36,284 bases of DNA from a virus. Positions 2,861 through 17,032 of this stretch are shown here, piece by piece. The translations under genes and the position numbers were made by a program. Location of the stretch: positions 1 to 36,284 of IMG/VR virus record IMGVR_UViG_3300030104_007459; one strand, 5' to 3'. The stretch's first letter is position 1. Each line of letters opens with the position of its first letter. The notes below the pieces were generated by a model that saw nothing but the letters and a program-made list of their open reading frames with translations, searched no databases and was not told the origin of the DNA.

Positions 2861-4855
2861 ATGTCACAGAATGAAATCATGGGTCGCGTTGCATTCGCTG
2901 CTCAATATGCTCATCCTACCCCCAACGGGAGAGAGTCATGGGAAGAGGCAATCGATCGAGTTGCTTCAATGCACAAAAAGAAATATCCCGAAGAAGAAGA
3001 TCGGATCGATTGGGCCTTCTCTCTAGTCAAAGATAAAAGAGTAGTCCCTTCTCAAAGATCAACGCAATTCGGAGGAGATGCAATCCTGAGAAATAATATG
3101 AGGATGTATAATTGTACTTTCTCTCCTGTTGATCGTCCTCGCTTTTTCTCAGAAATGTTTTGGCTTTTGCTTTGTGGAAGTGGGACGGGCTTTTCTGTAC
3201 GTCGGACTGATATCTCTCAGCTTCCAAGAGTAATTTTAAGAGATGCGTATTTAAGCAGAAGATCAATGGAGTATGTTGTTAAAGACTCAATTGAGGGTTG
3301 GGCGGAGGCTCTCCAAGCTCTCCTTGATTCATACTTCTTTACTGATTATTTTGATCACGCTTATGATTATGAACTAGAGTTTAACTTCTCTAAAGTACGT
3401 CCAAAAGGATCTCCGATCTCATCGGGTGGGATTGCTCCAGGTCCTGAGCCCTTGAAGACATGTCTTGAGAAGATCAAAAAGATTTTACATTCTCGATTTA
3501 GTCAAAGATTAAGATCAATTGATGTCTTCGATGTATGCATGGAATTGAGCGCGGCGGTCTTAAGTGGAGGCGTTCGTCGATCCGCTTCAATCTGTCTTTT
3601 TGATAATGATGATAATCTCATGTTAAATGCTAAGACGGGCGATTGGTGGAAGTATGCACCCTCCCGCGCATATGCAAACATCTCCGCAACGATTCCGACG
3701 GATGGGAGCGAGACAAAGAGCATGATCAATAGGGCCGTTAAACTCAATCGAGAATGGGGAGAACCTGGAGTCTTCTTCTCAAACTCTCCCGACTTTGGGA
3801 CTAATCCATGTTGTGAGATCGGGCTCTATCCTTATTTTGTTCAATCTGCTCTCGGAACTCATCAGACAGATCTCCCTCTAACAGTTACTAGAAATAGGAA
3901 AAGATTAGAGATGGGCGGGTGGATGTGGAGAAGTGGATGGGCTGTGTGTAATCTAACTGAGATCAATATGGAGAAGAATCTCACTGAAGAGCAATTTTAT
4001 GAGTCTTGTGAAGCGGCCTCATATATCGGAACACTTCAAGCGGGATATACAGAGACGGGGTACTTAGGACGGGTGACTAAAACGATTATAGAGCAAGAGG
4101 CTTTGATCGGAGTTTCTTTGACAGGAATGCATGCAAACCCGCTCTCTTTTGTTCCTAGTTTGTTAAGACAAGGGGCTAAAGTCGTTAAGGATGTAAACAA
4201 GTTGACAGCTGAGAGAATAGGAATCAATCATGCTTCTCGATTAACATGCATTAAACCAAGCGGTAACACTTCAACGATTTTAGGCACGTCCTCAGGAATC
4301 CATCCGTTCCATGCAGATCGATACATAAGAACAATCCGACTTTCTAAAATTAATCCAATTTGGAAACTCATCCAAGAAAAGCTCCCTGAAGCGACGATTG
4401 ATCTTGAAGGAGATACAGGGATAATCCAATTTGCTTGTGTAGGAAATGGAACTCCAAGAGAGCATCTCTCAGCTAAAGAGTTTTTGGAAACAGTCGCTCT
4501 CGTTCAGTCTCACTGGGTCGAGTATGGATCTCAAGAGAGTAGAGTTGAGGGATTGACTCATAATGTCTCTAATACTTGTACTGTAAAAGATAATGAATGG
4601 GGCGAAGTATCAGACTGGCTTTGGAAGAATCGAAGGACTGTCAAGGGCGTTGCTCTCTTGTCGGACTATGGAGACACAGTCTATCAAAACGCTCCCTTTC
4701 AAACTGTCAAGAATGGGACAGAGCAGGAGAAGGAGTGGAAAAGATTACTTGATCTAGATTGGAATAAAATTGATCTGACTTCTGTTAAGGGTGGAAATGA
4801 TGCACATTTAACGAGTGGATGCGATGGGCTTAAGTGTGAATTAGGCTCCAATTAG
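2861..4855 (+). CDS. nrdJ: Adenosylcobalamin-dependent ribonucleotide reductase (class II)
   Basis: 664 residues, resembling the monomeric B12-dependent ribonucleoside-triphosphate reductase (RTPR, about 740 residues in Lactobacillus). It reduces ribonucleotides to deoxyribonucleotides by a cobalamin-initiated thiyl radical. Visible features are the N-terminal redox Cys in RMYNCTFSP (C85), the block WLLLCGSGTGFSV (about 101-113), the catalytic N-x-C-x-E signature NPCCE (N315, C317, E319), the second redox Cys in VCNLTEIN (C363), IKPSGNTS (465-472), and a C-terminal Cys pair C654/C659 for re-reduction. C317 and C363 lie 46 residues apart; in RTPR the equivalent pair is about 11 apart, so there is an insert of about 35 residues. 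The 3' end overlaps the convergent gene by 15 bases. Phages use such enzymes to enlarge dNTP pools, here together with dCMP deaminase and ThyX. Confidence 0.93.
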   Translation: MSQNEIMGRVAFAAQYAHPTPNGRESWEEAIDRVASMHKKKYPEEEDRIDWAFSLVKDKRVVPSQRSTQFGGDAILRNNMRMYNCTFSPVDRPRFFSEMFWLLLCGSGTGFSVRRTDISQLPRVILRDAYLSRRSMEYVVKDSIEGWAEALQALLDSYFFTDYFDHAYDYELEFNFSKVRPKGSPISSGGIAPGPEPLKTCLEKIKKILHSRFSQRLRSIDVFDVCMELSAAVLSGGVRRSASICLFDNDDNLMLNAKTGDWWKYAPSRAYANISATIPTDGSETKSMINRAVKLNREWGEPGVFFSNSPDFGTNPCCEIGLYPYFVQSALGTHQTDLPLTVTRNRKRLEMGGWMWRSGWAVCNLTEINMEKNLTEEQFYESCEAASYIGTLQAGYTETGYLGRVTKTIIEQEALIGVSLTGMHANPLSFVPSLLRQGAKVVKDVNKLTAERIGINHASRLTCIKPSGNTSTILGTSSGIHPFHADRYIRTIRLSKINPIWKLIQEKLPEATIDLEGDTGIIQFACVGNGTPREHLSAKEFLETVALVQSHWVEYGSQESRVEGLTHNVSNTCTVKDNEWGEVSDWLWKNRRTVKGVALLSDYGDTVYQNAPFQTVKNGTEQEKEWKRLLDLDWNKIDLTSVKGGNDAHLTSGCDGLKCELGSN

Positions 4856-6001
4856 TTTCTTGATTTTATAAAATGTTCCTCCATTGGGATTCATTGTAAT
4901 CACTCTCTCGTATTCATTAAAAGTCTTTTGATCAATCTTCTCTTCGTTTAGCTGCTTTCTCAAGAGAAGCATAGTCTCTGACCAAGCGGGGTTTTGAGAA
5001 CACATAAAGACTCGAAAGCAATAGTCTGCAGGAGTTTGATCATGAGCAGGATCAAAGCAGGTTCCATAAGTCAGATCAAAGAGACTTGAGAGAATCCCTC
5101 CATCCGCTGGATCCCACTCTCTAAAAGATTCATAAGTGAGCTCGATCTTGCCTTCTTGGAGAAAGACTCGAAGGGGTGAGAGTCCATAAGTATAAAAAAG
5201 CTTTTCGAGTTCGTTTGATTCGCATTGATCGAGTGGCTTACTAGAATAAGTCTCCATCGCTACCAGGGCTTGATCAATGTCAGCTTCTTCTTTTACAAGT
5301 TCCTCAATCGTTGTATTGATTGAGAAGAAGTTTCTTAAAGGATTAGATGAAGGAGGCTTGATGGGAAGAGGAGGTGAAGTCTCTAATTTAGTTTTTTTTT
5401 TAGGAGCAGCAGCAGGAGAGGGAGGGGTTGAAGCCTTGGGAGGTTTGGCGGATTCAACGGAAGCATATACAATTCGATCTCTTTCCGCTTCATCCTGGAT
5501 CATGACTTCAGCGAGTTCATCAGGAGAGCAAGCCGTCCCGATCACCTCAGGAAAAGCAAGTCGTAGGAGAGCGGTCAAGGCTCGTTTATGCATCATAACC
5601 TTAGGCATCTTCTTCCAAGAGGATTGATTTAAAGTTCCTCTTAGTCGAGCGTCTTCAAGTGTATAAGTCCATTGCTTTGTTTGAGGTTCAAATCCAAACT
5701 CTTTACTCGTCTCTAGTTCATCTCGACGTAAAGCATAGACAGTGACAAAGTCTTCTCCTACTTCTTCCCAAATCGCTGCACACACTTTTTTTCCATCTTT
5801 TCCAACATAGCGTCGAACGGCTCCAGCCATTGCATCTGCATTAAGAGCGGGCTTTCCATGTAGACAATATGTTTGTGAAAGAGTGATGGGAATATTGAAC
5901 TCAAACAAATGTCCAAATGTAAGAAAGCATTTTACATTATCATTGAAGTCTCGATCTGTTGAAAGGTTTTGAATCATTTGCAATTGATTATCGTGTAACA
6001 T
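4841..6001 (-). CDS. Candidate RecT-like single-strand annealing protein
   Basis: 386 residues, read leftward. The N-terminal half has a pattern I associate with phage RecT-like proteins: a GKPALNADAMAGAVRR block (about 50-65), a beta region with the tag-like string QWTYTLEDARLRG, then W-K-K-M-P-K-V-M-M-H-K-R-A-L with RLAFPEVIG (about 130-160). A Pro/Lys/Ser-rich linker (about 186-225) leads to an acidic helical C-terminal domain of unknown role. Such proteins coat and anneal single-stranded DNA in replication and recombination. The start at 6001 has GGAGAGAAGAACC ahead of the ATG. It is last in the leftward operon that begins at 6931 and converges on nrdJ. No matching exonuclease gene was recognised nearby. 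Confidence 0.5.
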   Translation of the reverse strand: MLHDNQLQMIQNLSTDRDFNDNVKCFLTFGHLFEFNIPITLSQTYCLHGKPALNADAMAGAVRRYVGKDGKKVCAAIWEEVGEDFVTVYALRRDELETSKEFGFEPQTKQWTYTLEDARLRGTLNQSSWKKMPKVMMHKRALTALLRLAFPEVIGTACSPDELAEVMIQDEAERDRIVYASVESAKPPKASTPPSPAAAPKKKTKLETSPPLPIKPPSSNPLRNFFSINTTIEELVKEEADIDQALVAMETYSSKPLDQCESNELEKLFYTYGLSPLRVFLQEGKIELTYESFREWDPADGGILSSLFDLTYGTCFDPAHDQTPADYCFRVFMCSQNPAWSETMLLLRKQLNEEKIDQKTFNEYERVITMNPNGGTFYKIKKLIGA

Positions 6002-6025
6002 GGTTCTTCTCTCCAGGTTGTTTGT

Positions 6026-6220
6026 TTATTGATTAGCTCTAATATTAGAGACTGTCTCAAGAATAAAGGGATTAGGACTCTTAACAGCGTCCTCTCGTTG
6101 TGTACGTTTATGAAATGAGTTGAGAGCAAGGACAGCACAAAGGGCAATGATACTCATAAAGATCATAAAATGCTTTTCTGCGAATGTTCTTTTGTCTTGC
6201 TTGGGGATGTACTTAATCAT
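6026..6220 (-). CDS. Small single-pass membrane protein, unknown
   Basis: 64 residues with one hydrophobic stretch (FMIFMSIIALCAVLAL, about residues 18-34) between a basic N-terminus and a polar tail. AAGGAA precedes the ATG. It overlaps the end of the HTH gene by 8 bases, so the two are coupled. Small membrane proteins of this kind are common in early phage operons; no function can be given. Confidence 0.55.
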   Translation of the reverse strand: MIKYIPKQDKRTFAEKHFMIFMSIIALCAVLALNSFHKRTQREDAVKSPNPFILETVSNIRANQ

Positions 6221-6428: not shown

Positions 6429-6931
6429 TAAATCAATCCTTTGTATGTCAATAAATCTTCTCTATTTACTAAATGAATGGCATAAACAGTCCCTTGCTCG
6501 TCTTCTGATCTACAAGCAACAAATCCGTTTTCTCTTGCTGTCTTTGCTTGATATCCTTGAACATACCAAGAAAGCTCTCCAAGACTAAATCCGTCTAACT
6601 TAAAGCAATTCTCTTCATCTTCAAAATCTCCCATAAAACAATGTGTATCATTTGTGGTGATTAGATCCCAAGCTTCATCATCGTCTAAAGTAATATCAAA
6701 AAGAGATTTTACTCTGTATTGTGCTTCTTCAATCATTTCTTTACTTGGCTCAAGGTCTTGATAGTCAATGACTTGATCCTCTTCAATTTCTAAAGTATAT
6801 AAATGAACTTCACTGCTACAAGTCATAACGTATACATTAGTTGAAAAAAACAGAGTCCCTTCAAAATAATCATGATCTGAGTTGATTGTGTTAATAATTG
6901 ATGGGCTTGTGTGATTTAAAGTAAAAGTCAT
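6428..6931 (-). CDS. Acidic protein, unknown, first gene of leftward early operon
   Basis: 167 residues, strongly acidic (runs such as EIEEDQVIDYQDLEPS and DITLDDDEAWDL). It is read from AAAGGA 8 bases ahead of the ATG and from a near-consensus leftward promoter at 6986-7014. There is no membrane segment or recognised motif. A small acidic first gene in an early operon is typical of host-takeover or DNA-mimic proteins, but that is only a contextual guess. Confidence 0.6.
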   Translation of the reverse strand: MTFTLNHTSPSIINTINSDHDYFEGTLFFSTNVYVMTCSSEVHLYTLEIEEDQVIDYQDLEPSKEMIEEAQYRVKSLFDITLDDDEAWDLITTNDTHCFMGDFEDEENCFKLDGFSLGELSWYVQGYQAKTARENGFVACRSEDEQGTVYAIHLVNREDLLTYKGLI

Positions 6932-6960
6932 TTTTTAAATCCTTTCGAGATTTGTGTAAG

Positions 6961-6977
6961 TGATCAATCGTTGATCA
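6961..6977. promoter_or_regulatory. Operator-like palindrome
   Basis: TGATCAA-TCG-TTGATCA is a perfect 7-bp inverted repeat with a 3-base centre. It lies just downstream of the leftward -10 box (6986-6991), at about the expected transcription start. A repressor bound here would block the leftward promoter. The HTH protein encoded at 6213-6428 is the obvious candidate. Confidence 0.6.
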
Positions 6978-6985
6978 TGTTTAAA

Positions 6986-7014
6986 GTTATATCTTGTTTT
7001 TTTTACTGTGTCAA
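6986..7014 (-). promoter_or_regulatory. Strong sigma70-type promoter, leftward
   Basis: On the minus strand a perfect -35 TTGACA (7014-7009) is followed after 17 bases by TATAAC (6991-6986). It should drive the operon 6931 to 4841. Confidence 0.75.
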
Positions 7015-7017
7015 ATC

Positions 7018-7051
7018 TTTTTTTAAAAAAAGTTAAAAAAGAATTAAAAAA
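7018..7051 (+). promoter_or_regulatory. Phased A-tracts upstream of the initiator promoter
   Basis: A T7A7 palindrome (7018-7031) is followed by A-tracts at about 7035-7040 and 7046-7051. The tracts recur at roughly 10-11 base intervals directly upstream of the -35 box at 7053. Phased A-tracts bend DNA and can act as UP elements; that role is inferred here. Confidence 0.5.
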
Positions 7052-7081: not shown

Positions 7082-7102
7082 GAAAGCATGAAAGGAGTTC
7101 AT

Positions 7103-7786
7103 ATGAATGAATATAATTTAAGAAAACTAATTCTGAGTTGTCCAGATTTAGACTCTAATGAAAAAGTTTTACTTTTTGCTCTTTGCTTTCGCTTGGATTG
7201 GAAGACATGGAGCGGCTTTGTGTCAGTTTCAAATCTTGCAGATTTAACACAGAGTACAGAAAGAACAATAAGAAGAGTCCTCTCGAAGTTAAAGACTAAG
7301 GGAGTTATTCAAAGAGTCTCAACTAGAGAGAAAGGAGCCTCAAAAAGTCGAGTCGCTTTCACTAAAATCAATCTAAGTTTCTTTGATAAGTATGACAATA
7401 TTGACACTGACAAGATTGACACTGACAAGATTGACACTGACAAGATTGACACTGACAAGATTGACATTGACAAGGGGGACAAGATTGACATGGACAAGGG
7501 GGACAATATTGACCCCCATACAATAAGTAACAATAATAAACAATATTCTAACTCTCTGATAAAGAGGAAGTGGGGAAGCATGGAAGAGGAAGAAGAATAT
7601 ACAGAAGAGATTGAGGAGGATGATCGAGAGGTCAATCAAGTCTATACTTTTCAATATCCGTCTTCTATACTCGATCCTGAAGAAAGACTCAAAGCAGAGA
7701 ACCACGTCAAAGCAAACTATCATCGATTATCATACACAGATCGAGAGCGGATTATGTATCCCGATCTTACAAAGCCTTTAATCTAA
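7103..7786 (+). CDS. Replication initiator with winged-helix N-terminus and internal iterons
   Basis: 227 residues from the ATG at 7103, chosen because AAAGGAG sits 5-6 bases ahead of it; the ATG at 7088 lies upstream of that site. Residues about 1-95 form a helix-turn-helix/winged-helix domain (DSNEKVLLFALCFRL, then NLADLTQSTERTIRRVLSKL). Residues about 100-138 are a tandem Asp/Lys pentapeptide repeat (IDTDK) encoded by a 15-bp DNA repeat, and the C-terminal part is acidic then mixed. The DnaC-like loader gene follows. This matches lambda O-type and other phage initiators that bind iterons inside their own gene and recruit the host helicase through the loader. The protein-level repeat may simply be a by-product of the DNA iterons. 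Confidence 0.75.
   Translation: MNEYNLRKLILSCPDLDSNEKVLLFALCFRLDWKTWSGFVSVSNLADLTQSTERTIRRVLSKLKTKGVIQRVSTREKGASKSRVAFTKINLSFFDKYDNIDTDKIDTDKIDTDKIDTDKIDIDKGDKIDMDKGDNIDPHTISNNNKQYSNSLIKRKWGSMEEEEEYTEEIEEDDREVNQVYTFQYPSSILDPEERLKAENHVKANYHRLSYTDRERIMYPDLTKPLI
7394..7553 (+). other. Putative replication origin (iterons plus AT-rich region)
   Basis: Four exact copies of ATTGACACTGACAAG stand head to tail at 7400-7414, 7415-7429, 7430-7444 and 7445-7459. A one-base variant follows at 7460-7474. After GGGGACAAG comes a further variant at 7484-7498, then GGGGACAAT and another ATTGAC. An AT-rich stretch (about 7517-7553) follows, a plausible unwinding element. Iterons inside the initiator gene followed by AT-rich DNA are the lambda-type origin plan. 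Confidence 0.65.
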
Positions 7787-13272: not shown

Positions 13273-14640
13273 ATGGATTTACAACTCAATGAGCTTCAAC
13301 AGAACATTATCGCAAGAATCAGAAGAAGGGATCGTGTGATCTCTGCTCGATGTGGATGGGGAAGTGGAAAGACAAGCGGCCTTGTCTTTGCCTTGTGGTT
13401 TATTAGTCGGATCCGTCCAGGAACATCTTCTCTTCTCATCACAGACACCTCTCCACGCTATCGATCTGTTTTAGGACCTGAGTTAGAAAAGTGGCTAGGG
13501 CCTCTCGGATGGACTTTTAATTCTTTGGAGATGAAGTGGACTTGCCCGATCACTCAATCTTCCATATGGTGCAGGTCTTACTTTCGACCTGGTACAAGAG
13601 AAGCGACACACAATCCCCTTGAAGGATTGAACATTACTTCAGGAGTTGCTCTGATTGATGAATGTCAGACTTTCCGATCTGATGAAGTAGCACAGAAAGC
13701 TCTAGGACGACTTCGAGCGGGTCCCTCTCCCATCATGATTCTCGTCGGTCTTCCTGTGAGTGACGCTTGGTGGTGTCAACTTGCAGAGAAAGCAAACTAT
13801 GATCCTCTCCTTTTCACTTCATATGTAAATCAAAACAATTTGAGTGACGAGTGGTTTGAGGCGACTAAGCTCCTTCCTGAAGAAGAGCGGCTTGCGATGG
13901 TCATGAATCAACCTCGACCTCCAACAGGCTTAATTTATAATGAATGGACAGAGAGTCACGTGATCGACGGATTCAAATACAAGGAGGAGATGACAGGAAG
14001 GATCGCAATCGATTGGGGATTTAGAAAGCCTTCAGTTCTGATCATGGTATACGATGAGAAGAGAGAGGCAACAATCATCCTCCATGAGATCAACCCCCAA
14101 GAGGTGACCATCTCCCAACTCTCAAAGATGATCCTCTCAATTGCATGGCCTCGTAAGTTGAAAGACTCTTCTCCAGGTCCTCGAATATGGCTTGACAGTG
14201 GAATCGCAGACAAGGCGGGATCCGCTCGCAATGATCAGACAGGACGGACAGCTTTTAGAGAAATCATGAAAGCTCCTCATCTTGGAGGAATAGGACTTCC
14301 TCTTCGATATACTACTGACCCCGTCTTGACGAATGTTTTAAACGGAATCCAAAAACTAAAACGGGCTTTTGCTCGAAAGAAATATCTCTGTACTAGAGAA
14401 GTATGGACAAGAGGAGAAAAGTCCATAGGGAACTCATTCAGAAAAGCGATCCTCTCTTATGGATGGAATCCAACACGAGACGAACCCAAGAAGGACGGGA
14501 GAGAGGATCCTTTAGACGCTCTGAGATACGATTGTATTATCCATCATTGGAGCGATCTCTCCACTCCATCTTATTCCCCATCCTCTAGAAGAAGAACAGA
14601 AAAACGACAAAGACGAATCGGACGAAAGGAAACATTTTGA
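13273..14640 (+). CDS. Terminase large subunit
   Basis: 455 residues. Packaging ATPase: Walker A GWGSGKT (28-34), Walker B VALIDE with D129 and E130 in GVALIDECQ. Nuclease domain: D247 in AIDWGF, D308 in WLDSG and the C-terminal DPLDALRYD (412-420), the usual three acidic clusters of an RNase H-like terminase nuclease. It cuts concatemeric DNA and drives it into the procapsid through the portal encoded at 15611. The last five codons read K-E-T-F-stop, and a near copy reading K-E-A-F-stop lies 722 bases downstream, beyond the next gene. Confidence 0.92.
   Translation: MDLQLNELQQNIIARIRRRDRVISARCGWGSGKTSGLVFALWFISRIRPGTSSLLITDTSPRYRSVLGPELEKWLGPLGWTFNSLEMKWTCPITQSSIWCRSYFRPGTREATHNPLEGLNITSGVALIDECQTFRSDEVAQKALGRLRAGPSPIMILVGLPVSDAWWCQLAEKANYDPLLFTSYVNQNNLSDEWFEATKLLPEEERLAMVMNQPRPPTGLIYNEWTESHVIDGFKYKEEMTGRIAIDWGFRKPSVLIMVYDEKREATIILHEINPQEVTISQLSKMILSIAWPRKLKDSSPGPRIWLDSGIADKAGSARNDQTGRTAFREIMKAPHLGGIGLPLRYTTDPVLTNVLNGIQKLKRAFARKKYLCTREVWTRGEKSIGNSFRKAILSYGWNPTRDEPKKDGREDPLDALRYDCIIHHWSDLSTPSYSPSSRRRTEKRQRRIGRKETF
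14624..14640 (+). repeat. Direct repeat flanking the T5orf172 gene (left copy)
   Basis: GAAAGGAAACATTTTGA matches 15346-15362 at 16 of 17 bases. It encodes the end of the large terminase and also provides the ribosome binding site and TTG start of the next gene. Confidence 0.75.
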
Positions 14641-15344
14641 GCTATTTATATTTTATTCAAGATGAAGAATCAAAAGACATTAAGATCGGAAGAACAAAAG
14701 ATATTAATAGAAGAATTAAAGAAATTAGAAGAGGGTCAAATCGATCCTATCAAGTCTTATATGCTTTTAATAATCTCGCTCATCTAGAGATTGAGCTTCA
14801 TCAATATCTTTTTAAATATAGGATTAGATATGAGTGGTTTCGAGAGGATTGTTTGGATCTAGCTTTAAGTTTTCTAGAGTCTTATGGAATAAATGAAAAA
14901 GGATTAAGTCAGACTTGGGGGAAGGTCTGTGACTTTGATCGATGGCTTAAATCATCTGATCTAAATCTTTATCAAAACATATCGGATTTTATATTTATCT
15001 CTTTGTGCTTTGGGTACAAGTGGACAAAAGAAAGCATTGAGTCAACTTTTAGAATTACTAAAAGAGATGCTTTAAGCTTAATATGTGAAATTGAGCTAAG
15101 AAATAAAACTCATATATTGAGTCGATTTATTGAGCTTTTAATAGATGAAAAAAAATTAGAACCTGGAGTCTTTAGTTTTTCTAGTTTTGATGAGATCAAA
15201 ATAGTAACGGGCTTTGTTGTGTATGTTCAATCTCCTCTAAAAATGCATGAAAACATTAGAAAAGAATTGAATGGACTCAAGATTGAATTGGCCTCTCTCA
15301 CTAGAGAAAAAACTTGTTCTTCGTATCAAGTAAGCTTGTTTTAA
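14637..15344 (+). CDS. T5orf172 / GIY-YIG-like protein, likely mobile cassette
   Basis: 235 residues, starting with TTG at 14637 that overlaps the terminase stop (TTGA); GGAAACAT lies ahead of it. Residues about 3-70 fit the T5orf172 (MUG113-type GIY-YIG) domain: YLYFIQDEESKDIKIGRTKD, then RRIKEIRRGSNRSYQVL, the helix EIELHQYLF and EWFRED. The C-terminal part (about 85-235) is helical and of unknown family. GIY-YIG-type proteins are often mobile endonucleases. The gene is more AT-rich than the terminase and portal genes and is flanked by 17-base near-identical direct repeats, so it looks inserted between them. Confidence 0.7.
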   Translation: MSYLYFIQDEESKDIKIGRTKDINRRIKEIRRGSNRSYQVLYAFNNLAHLEIELHQYLFKYRIRYEWFREDCLDLALSFLESYGINEKGLSQTWGKVCDFDRWLKSSDLNLYQNISDFIFISLCFGYKWTKESIESTFRITKRDALSLICEIELRNKTHILSRFIELLIDEKKLEPGVFSFSSFDEIKIVTGFVVYVQSPLKMHENIRKELNGLKIELASLTREKTCSSYQVSLF

Positions 15345-15345
15345 A

Positions 15346-15362
15346 GAAAGGAAGCATTTTGA
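15346..15362 (+). repeat. Direct repeat flanking the T5orf172 gene (right copy)
   Basis: GAAAGGAAGCATTTTGA, one mismatch to 14624-14640. Read in the terminase frame it gives K-E-A-F-stop, a displaced second version of the terminase C-terminus. It begins two bases after the T5orf172 gene stop. Confidence 0.75.
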
Positions 15363-15373
15363 AACTAATAAAT

Positions 15374-15479
15374 GACATCGAAGAGAGAAATTGAATCGAC
15401 TGAAAATATCTACTCTCTTTTATAACGTCTTTGACGTACATAATAAAAAAAGAATGTGTACCCTCTCCGATGTCGAGAG
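15374..15479 (+). ncRNA. Candidate structured RNA in the 266-base gap before the portal gene
   Basis: Several pairings can be read by eye. AAGAGAG (15381-15387) pairs with CTCTCTT (15413-15419). ACGTC-TTT-GACGT (15425-15437) is a hairpin. GTACATA (15436-15442) pairs with TGTGTAC (15455-15461), with one G-U, and competes with that hairpin. CTCTC-CGATGTC-GAGAG (15463-15479) is a hairpin whose whole 7-base loop complements GACATCG (15374-15380), giving a possible pseudoknot; alternatively GACATCG and CGATGTC form a closing stem extended by AGAG/CTCT. It could be a cis-regulatory leader element, a small RNA, or a remnant of a mobile intron linked to the adjacent GIY-YIG-like gene. The family is not recognised. 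Confidence 0.4.
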
Positions 15480-15610: not shown

Positions 15611-17032
15611 ATGAGCAACGAGCAAGACGAGAGAACTCCCGATCATCTCAAAGCGATGTATCCAAGATTTAAGACCCGCGGGATAAGTGGTACTCAGATC
15701 TCAGGGGGGAAGATCACAGGTAAAGAGCGTAATCCAAAACTAACGGGGCTCAATTGGGTTCAAGAAGCAGAGGACATGCTTGCAACTGATCCCGTCGTCC
15801 GTCGATCGTGGCACATGTTGAGACAGACTCTTCTCTCTGCAACATGGCGTTTTATTCCTGGAGTTAAAGGGGATGAGATCTCCGAAGAACTCGCAAGATT
15901 TAGTAACGAGGCTTTTGGATTCGATGGATATGCAGGACAGCTCTCGACTTCTTGGGAAGAACAATTAACATACTTATGGGAGTTCGTCCCTGTGGGCTAT
16001 CGATACGCAGAGGAGATCTATAGGGTAGGCCCTGATTCAAGAGGCAAGGTTAGAGTGTGGCTTGATTACTATGCAGATCGAGAACCTTCTGCTCATAATC
16101 GATGGTTATCAAGAGATGGACAACACTTGGATGGAGTCCTTCAGAATGTAGTAGGGACGACCTACACTCCTGAACCCATCCCTGCAAACAAACTCCTCCT
16201 CCTCACTTTGAATAGAACAGGATCAAACTTCGAGGGGATTGGGATGCTGCGTCCAGTGTGGTGGTGGTGGAGGACTAAGCAGCGAGTTAGTAACTTAATG
16301 TGTGTAGGTTTAGAGAGATGGGCCTTGCCTACTCCAAAAGTAAAAGTAGATCGATCTCAGGCAGAGATGCAAGGATTGACGGATGCAGATTTGAGCGTAA
16401 TGATTGAAGAGGCAGCGGATCAAGCTGAAGCCTTCCTCGCCACTGAACTCTCCTATTTAGTTGAGTCTCCTGTCATTCAATTTGATTCATACTCCACAAC
16501 TCCATACTTGTATTCTCAAGGCCCTCTCGACATAATCAAAGAATGTGATAATCAGATCTCTCAAGCTTTCCTCGCTCAATTTGCTAATCTTGGGATTAGT
16601 GATACAGGATCGAGATCTGTGGGAGAAGTTCACCTCTCAGTATTTAGAAGAGCAGCGATCAATCTTTGTGATATAGTCGCAGCTCAAGTCTCAGGAGTAG
16701 ATCGAAGGGGAGGGGGAACAATAGGCCGCTTGATTCGTTGGAACTATGGAGCGATTGATCCAAGTAAGCTCCCTCGATTAACTCACACGGGCCTTGATAC
16801 TGATGACCTCGCAGAGTCTTTAGGCATGCTTCCAGGTCTTGTCCAATCGGGTCTACTTACTCCTGATGATGATCTTGAAAGAGCGATTCGAGAAAGACTA
16901 GGAGCGGGGGATCTTCCTGAAATCGCAGAGCGTACACCTCTCGAAAGATCTATGATTAAAGGCGGGGGTGTCGCTTCATTAACTGAGAATCTACTTAGAC
17001 GAAAAGGAAGAACCCATGGTCAAGAAGATTAG
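15611..17032 (+). CDS. Portal protein (DUF935 / Mu gp29-like)
   Basis: 473 residues. The layout fits DUF935-type portals: DPVVRRSWHMLRQTLLSATWRFIP near the N-terminus, LWEFVPVGYRYAEEIYR, the motif PANKLLLLTLNR, a Trp-rich stretch before KQRVSNLMCVGLERW, and a late FLAQFANLG helix region. The portal is the dodecameric ring through which the terminase pumps DNA. GAGGA lies 7 bases before the ATG. It directly precedes the protease/scaffold gene, overlapping it by 17 bases. Confidence 0.82.
   Translation: MSNEQDERTPDHLKAMYPRFKTRGISGTQISGGKITGKERNPKLTGLNWVQEAEDMLATDPVVRRSWHMLRQTLLSATWRFIPGVKGDEISEELARFSNEAFGFDGYAGQLSTSWEEQLTYLWEFVPVGYRYAEEIYRVGPDSRGKVRVWLDYYADREPSAHNRWLSRDGQHLDGVLQNVVGTTYTPEPIPANKLLLLTLNRTGSNFEGIGMLRPVWWWWRTKQRVSNLMCVGLERWALPTPKVKVDRSQAEMQGLTDADLSVMIEEAADQAEAFLATELSYLVESPVIQFDSYSTTPYLYSQGPLDIIKECDNQISQAFLAQFANLGISDTGSRSVGEVHLSVFRRAAINLCDIVAAQVSGVDRRGGGTIGRLIRWNYGAIDPSKLPRLTHTGLDTDDLAESLGMLPGLVQSGLLTPDDDLERAIRERLGAGDLPEIAERTPLERSMIKGGGVASLTENLLRRKGRTHGQED

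Follow-up and report, generated by a model that had tools for sequence, protein, structure and literature searches.

A cargo slot between the terminase and portal genes of a phage, with a probable gene-swap scar behind the terminase

Genes in the terminase-portal gap

The window analysed here is a 36,284-nucleotide stretch of viral DNA (IMG/VR record IMGVR_UViG_3300030104_007459). In it, a T5orf172/GIY-YIG gene lies between the genes for the large terminase subunit and the portal protein, and is followed by a structured hairpin (Table 1). The first-pass annotation had noted two copies of a 17-base sequence around the T5orf172 gene, and both lie where it placed them, 722 bases apart and identical at 16 of 17 positions. 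As it also stated, the left copy both ends the terminase and starts the T5orf172 ORF: it contains an AAGGA ribosome-binding-like site and the TTG start at 14637, which overlaps the terminase stop (TTGA). The repeat is more than chance. None of 200 shuffled 17-mers matched as well in the slot as the terminase tail does, and the 36 kb contain five matches with at most three mismatches, versus 0.85 in shuffles. The inserted gene is indeed AT-richer than its neighbour (30.4% GC versus 45.5% in the terminase). The T5orf172 genes of relatives are likewise AT-rich (31-37% GC), so this property does not date the insertion.

Table 1. Positions of the features discussed in the text, in window coordinates
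Feature	Position	Strand	Evidence or remark
Bet/Red-beta-like annealase	4841-6001	-	TIGR01913 2.6e-6, below cut-off
Large terminase subunit gene, left border of slot	13273-14640	+	phrog_2 terminase 3.7e-12
Left 17-base copy GAAAGGAAACATTTTGA, terminase end K-E-T-F-stop	14624-14640	+	
T5orf172/GIY-YIG gene, 235 aa, TTG start	14637-15344	+	PF10544 3.3e-9, PF13455 1e-9
GIY-YIG-type nuclease domain, residues 1-71	14637-14849	+	Pfam match 3-71
QVSLF, sliding-clamp-binding-like C-terminus	15327-15341	+	low-confidence tail, pLDDT 28
Right 17-base copy GAAAGGAAGCATTTTGA, K-E-A-F-stop, relic of old terminase end	15346-15362	+	same as L045/L018 terminase end
Probable swap scar: relic terminase tail and first bases of deleted N6/N4 methyltransferase (TTG AAA CTA AT)	15346-15369	+	24/24 identical to L045 junction
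AT microhomology, 2 bp, at putative methyltransferase deletion joint	15368-15369	+	from 15370 the window equals L045 post-stop sequence
Structured hairpin	15370-15478	+	outer-stem arms 15373-15387 and 15462-15475; conserved CTACTCTCT in loop
Portal gene, right border of slot	15611-17032	+	PF06074 1.2e-25, phrog_113 2.1e-33

The inserted gene and its protein

Two nuclease-domain profiles match the T5orf172 protein significantly, namely PF10544 (37.6 bits, cut-off 20) and PF13455 (MUG113; 39.3 bits, cut-off 22.3), and the PF01541 (GIY-YIG) score of 17.2 bits is under its cut-off of 22.6. Homologues occupy the same slot in seven relatives (L002, L008, L014, L020, L047, L053 and L059). Among the eight proteins, Y5, K16-I17-G18, R19, R26, E51, H55 and E66-W67-F68 are invariant, and all of these except W67 and F68 are candidate catalytic residues of the family. 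The AlphaFold model has a beta-beta-alpha-beta-alpha core with a pLDDT of about 75-93, and residues 1-80 model as GIY-YIG-type. The C-terminal half, where a free-standing homing endonuclease would be expected to have a separate DNA-binding domain, has helices at residues 109-154, predicted with moderate to low confidence (8 sequences), and Foldseek found no match for it at E <= 0.001; the weak matches are mostly to unrelated or winged-helix-like structures. With dN/dS values of 0.045-0.12, the gene is under purifying selection.

Matches to described phages are limited to 30-37% identity over the N-terminal domain, and we found no described phage relative of the terminase. A tblastn search of genome contigs gave no host or prophage copy, and no PADLOC or NCBIfam match labels T5orf172 as part of an anti-phage system. 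The nearest homologue has 69% DNA identity; the donor was not found.

Slot contents among relatives

We kept 80 relatives of the terminase (67-99% identity), and compared the terminase-portal gap in the window and 32 close relatives. In these 33 phages, the gap contains T5orf172 in 8, an N6/N4 methyltransferase in 11, a C5 methyltransferase in 5, a small HTH-like gene alone in 2 and no gene in 7. On a terminase tree built without the junction, slot content changes 17 times, versus a mean of 19.0 for shuffled labels, which reach as low a value in 26 of 200 cases. Thus, what the slot contains depends very little on ancestry. For T5orf172 and for non-nuclease cargo alike, occupied and empty sites occur at one position beside a conserved gene. 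We conclude that, in this group of uncultivated phages, the gap between these two essential packaging genes serves as a slot in which single accessory genes are rapidly exchanged, DNA-modifying and predicted DNA-cutting ones among them. Given that the same slot takes three other types of cargo, entry needs no homing endonuclease.

In relatives at about 70% identity, the slot has other small ORFs, sometimes with a methyltransferase after them. A further methyltransferase family, the D12-class adenine methyltransferases (PF02086), occurs in the slot of the more distant relatives L071 (positions 5400-6185) and L072.

Origin of the second terminase end

The closest relatives of the window are L045 (the same contig as L001) and L018, whose terminase DNA is 93-95% identical to that of the window (L018 95%, L045 93%) and whose portal DNA is 94% identical. 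The three form a clade with support of 100/100 in the terminase tree. Directly behind the terminase, where the window has T5orf172, L045 and L018 carry an N6/N4 DNA methyltransferase gene (PF01555, 1.4e-30). Their junction between the two genes reads GAAAGGAAGCATTTTGAAACTAAT and then CAATGG, and the terminase end within it is identical to the right copy, in agreement with the earlier proposal that this copy is a displaced terminase 3′ end.

The first-pass annotation had also predicted that phages without T5orf172 would read from the terminase through a single 17-base copy into the sequence that follows the right copy. In L045 and L018, the terminase does run through one copy into AACTAAT (window 15363-15369), and the prediction holds as far as 15369, but the supposedly empty site holds another gene, the methyltransferase. 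The right-hand identity to relatives extends into methyltransferase codons, a point that the first-pass annotation had missed. Beyond it, the window continues with AAATGACATCGAAGAG, which is the sequence just past the methyltransferase stop in L045. This complete match to the L045 junction, followed by post-methyltransferase sequence across a 2-bp microhomology, argues that the second tail is a gene-swap scar. It is the original terminase end, still joined to the first codons of a methyltransferase gene that was deleted.

We also considered whether the similarity of the copies merely reflects selection for ribosome-binding sites beside TTG starts. The pattern AAGGAA-ATTTTG recurs at the terminase end in many relatives, as does the use of the same TTTTGA start by the cargo, and many T5orf172 and N6/N4 genes begin at a TTG that overlaps the terminase stop. 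However, the right copy precedes an ORF of just 11 codons, and a comparable match is absent from the slots of all other relatives. Convergence on ribosome-binding sites is ruled out by the 24/24 identity to L045, since this identity reaches into methyltransferase codons, and we give the idea practically no credence.

A different suggestion in the first-pass annotation was that a free-standing GIY-YIG gene inserts behind the terminase as a homing cassette, equipped with an additional terminase end that serves for its own repair. T5orf172 is a known class of phage homing endonucleases, whose genes lie close to the terminase in 35% of neighbourhoods (PMC10448857), and the window does have a second tail. 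However, five other T5orf172 loci can be read on the 3′ side of the gene (L002, L020, L047, L053 and L059; L008 and L014 end inside the gene and are left out of this count), and none of them has such a tail; the scar is particular to the window. Moreover, the tail in the window runs on into methyltransferase codons, which marks it as a deletion scar. Given that the tail belongs to a terminase/methyltransferase junction from which the methyltransferase was apparently deleted, the repair-end mechanism seems to be wrong, and a homing cassette of this kind is very improbable.

Our preferred explanation, to which we assign a probability of about 0.72, is an imprecise cargo swap in the exchange slot, by which T5orf172 came in, a methyltransferase went out and a scar with a terminase tail was left. 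The slot in the lineage of the window would first have held an N6/N4 DNA methyltransferase gene. The T5orf172/GIY-YIG gene would then have come in at the terminase end, and the methyltransferase would have been lost by deletion across the 2-bp microhomology, leaving the original terminase tail and about three methyltransferase codons at 15346-15369. The two copies would thus be alternative terminase ends produced by the imprecise swap. The gain of T5orf172 and the deletion may have been one event or two, in either order. Swaps in the slot most likely proceed via short identities at the terminase stop or end, at the ends of cargo genes and around the hairpin, and the Bet-like annealase encoded in the window is a plausible helper of such short-homology recombination.

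A variant is that the methyltransferase was lost first, yielding a scarred empty slot, and that T5orf172 later entered the terminase tail, duplicating 17 bases of its target. The two copies differ at one base and flank the gene exactly, as this scenario would have it, but the census of 33 phages revealed no scarred empty slot among the relatives. Also, a 17-base target duplication is not a known feature of GIY-YIG homing. We regard this order of events, with its duplication, as unlikely.

Lateral transfer and the question of homing

A nuclease gene next to a phage terminase is commonly interpreted as a selfish homing gene. The DNA of L059 and L020 is 68% identical in the terminase and 73% in the portal gene, versus 86% in T5orf172. 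L060 and L066, which are sisters of L059 (95.5% identity in the terminase, 98% in the portal gene), do not have T5orf172. Comparison of these sequences shows that T5orf172 was transferred laterally between lineages, and this movement, together with the alternation of cargo, bears out the earlier view of the inserted gene as a mobile accessory gene. In L059 (positions 3732-4694), T5orf172 is joined in frame, at its TTG start, to the end of a small HTH-like gene across a short identity, TTGAAGC.TCTG, while the slot of L060 and L066 has the HTH gene alone. The L059 junctions fall at short identities.

The transferred gene could nonetheless encode an active homing endonuclease that cuts gene-less slots, in which case the tail in the window would be a repair accident and clamp binding (see below) would serve homing at replication forks. 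Membership in the GIY-YIG family and purifying selection are consistent with this, as are the transfer across lineages, the existence of gene-less slots and the clustering of T5orf172 homing endonuclease genes at terminases (PMC10448857). On the other hand, three types of cargo that are not nucleases turn over as fast in the same slot, such that homing is not needed to explain the turnover, and the short identities at the L059 junctions also speak against it. Active homing is therefore a serious possibility, if one that we doubt. Because the same position hosts methyltransferases, an HTH-like gene or nothing, almost independently of the tree, the slot is a natural system in which to separate homing from ordinary cargo exchange.

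A covarying hairpin closes the slot

The hairpin downstream of the cargo, which the first-pass annotation had also missed, exhibits compensatory changes at all 13 consensus stem pairs (16 sequences). The mean pairing energy of stems is -19.4 kcal/mol with their own arms versus -6.1 kcal/mol with swapped arms. An automatic inverted-repeat search picked another repeat in the window, and the arms in Table 1 were set by hand from the alignment with L045. A covariance model, R1, scores 84 bits at the hairpin, its sole match in the window. The model matches at the 3′ end of the slot in the window and in each of the 27 relatives searched whose terminase shows 79% identity or more, a count that leaves out the L052-L055 group, where a different hairpin occurs; 16 of these 28 sequences were used to build the model and match by construction. 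Matches outside the slot are weak (E > 0.05). No Rfam family reached its gathering score in eight sources including the window, the best sub-threshold match having E >= 1.2. The hairpin is thus an undescribed, strongly covarying element. Given that no T-run follows it, it is unlike a standard terminator.

The hairpin occurs also at slots without cargo. After T5orf172 in L059, it is of the type found in L020 and L003, up to the end of the right arm. L062, in the lineage of L059, pairs this type of hairpin with a methyltransferase, so the hairpin may have been transferred in either direction. In L058 (positions 6774-7024), a C5 methyltransferase is followed by two tandem hairpins, an arrangement that looks like the addition of a second unit. 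A wider search for the hairpin with a DNA pattern gave four further viral matches (L035, L037, L038 and L044), which lie in unrelated contexts and which we take to be chance matches.

The combination of a single ORF that can be exchanged and a structured hairpin behind it resembles integron cassettes with their attC hairpins, as do the tandem hairpins of L058. Unlike integrons, the slot is confined to one fixed position, where there is mostly one cargo gene, and the hairpin is present without cargo too.

A sliding-clamp-type motif shared by two cargo families

The T5orf172 proteins end in QVSLF or QVC[IL]F, and 11 close N6/N4 methyltransferases end in QLSLF or near variants. The motif QLxLF at a C-terminus is known to bind the sliding clamp (PMC4549789, PMC12309361). 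In the examined loci, 15 of the 765 ORFs of at least 90 aa end in Q-h-x-h-F, all of them slot cargo (T5orf172 or N6/N4 methyltransferase); since the loci are related, these 15 C-termini count as two protein families and not as 15 independent observations. The two families are unrelated to one another. The last 21 bases of T5orf172 in L020 and of the methyltransferase gene in L045 agree at 17 positions (by eye), so swaps could have passed the motif on as DNA sequence. In N6/N4 enzymes that are more distant (L067, L094 and L115), only a degenerate xLPLF is present. The C5 methyltransferases in the slot lack the motif, which is therefore not required of cargo.

The window encodes a DnaC/DnaA-like loader, which would fit a phage that replicates with the replisome of its host, clamp included. 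Most likely, the inserted gene encodes a GIY-YIG nuclease, was brought in by short-homology recombination and yields a protein that is tethered to the host clamp. It would then act on replicating DNA, and its targets could be the DNA of competing phages, host DNA or its own homing target. If the motif does bind the host clamp, these phages would have brought two DNA enzymes with opposed actions to the replication fork. A bolder and rather doubtful extension is that the slot serves specifically as an entry point for DNA enzymes tethered to the clamp. Its cargo, T5orf172 nuclease or N6/N4 methyltransferase genes, would be swapped as units, sometimes with the covarying 3′ hairpin, which would aid recombination or expression. 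Related phages would in this way exchange a fork-tethered methylase that protects DNA for a fork-tethered nuclease that attacks competitors.

Comparison to known systems

T5orf172 homing endonuclease genes have been described in ICP1 and other phages (Barth, Dunham and Seed 2023; PMC10448857). As there, the gene in the window is free-standing, lies by an essential gene in the neighbourhood of the terminase, is variably present and marks a boundary of genetic exchange. Unlike the ICP1-type genes, it alternates in its slot with DNA methyltransferases, it shares a C-terminal clamp-type motif with other cargo, the extra terminase end is probably a swap scar, and homing is only a candidate function. 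Neither “methyltransferase” nor “sliding clamp” occurs in the main text of that paper. Among the papers found, none ties T5orf172 to clamp motifs or to a slot in which it alternates with methyltransferases, and none of those listed deals directly with the sliding clamp in connection with homing endonucleases or methyltransferases.

IS transposases bind the beta sliding clamp via a C-terminal QLxLF (PMC4549789). They too are DNA-acting enzymes of mobile genes, with unrelated families converging on the same type of C-terminal motif. The slot differs in that its enzymes are a phage GIY-YIG-type nuclease and N6/N4 methyltransferases, with no transposase, and clamp binding is predicted from the motif. 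In the DnmA-YeeB-YeeC system of Bacillus subtilis, a DNA methyltransferase, a T5orf172/GIY-YIG gene and a helicase share one operon (PMC9973331). A DNA methyltransferase is thus associated with a T5orf172/GIY-YIG gene in both cases, but here the two are alternative occupants of one slot.

Two repeats elsewhere in the window were also observed. A 15-base tandem repeat at 7393-7513, in the ORF at 7088-7786, codes for DKIDT repeats. Tail-fibre-like GTARTNLGLGTSAT repeats with a 192-base unit occur at both ends of the contig (35271-36284 and 1-700), and since the 50-base ends recur inside, the contig probably broke in this repeat.
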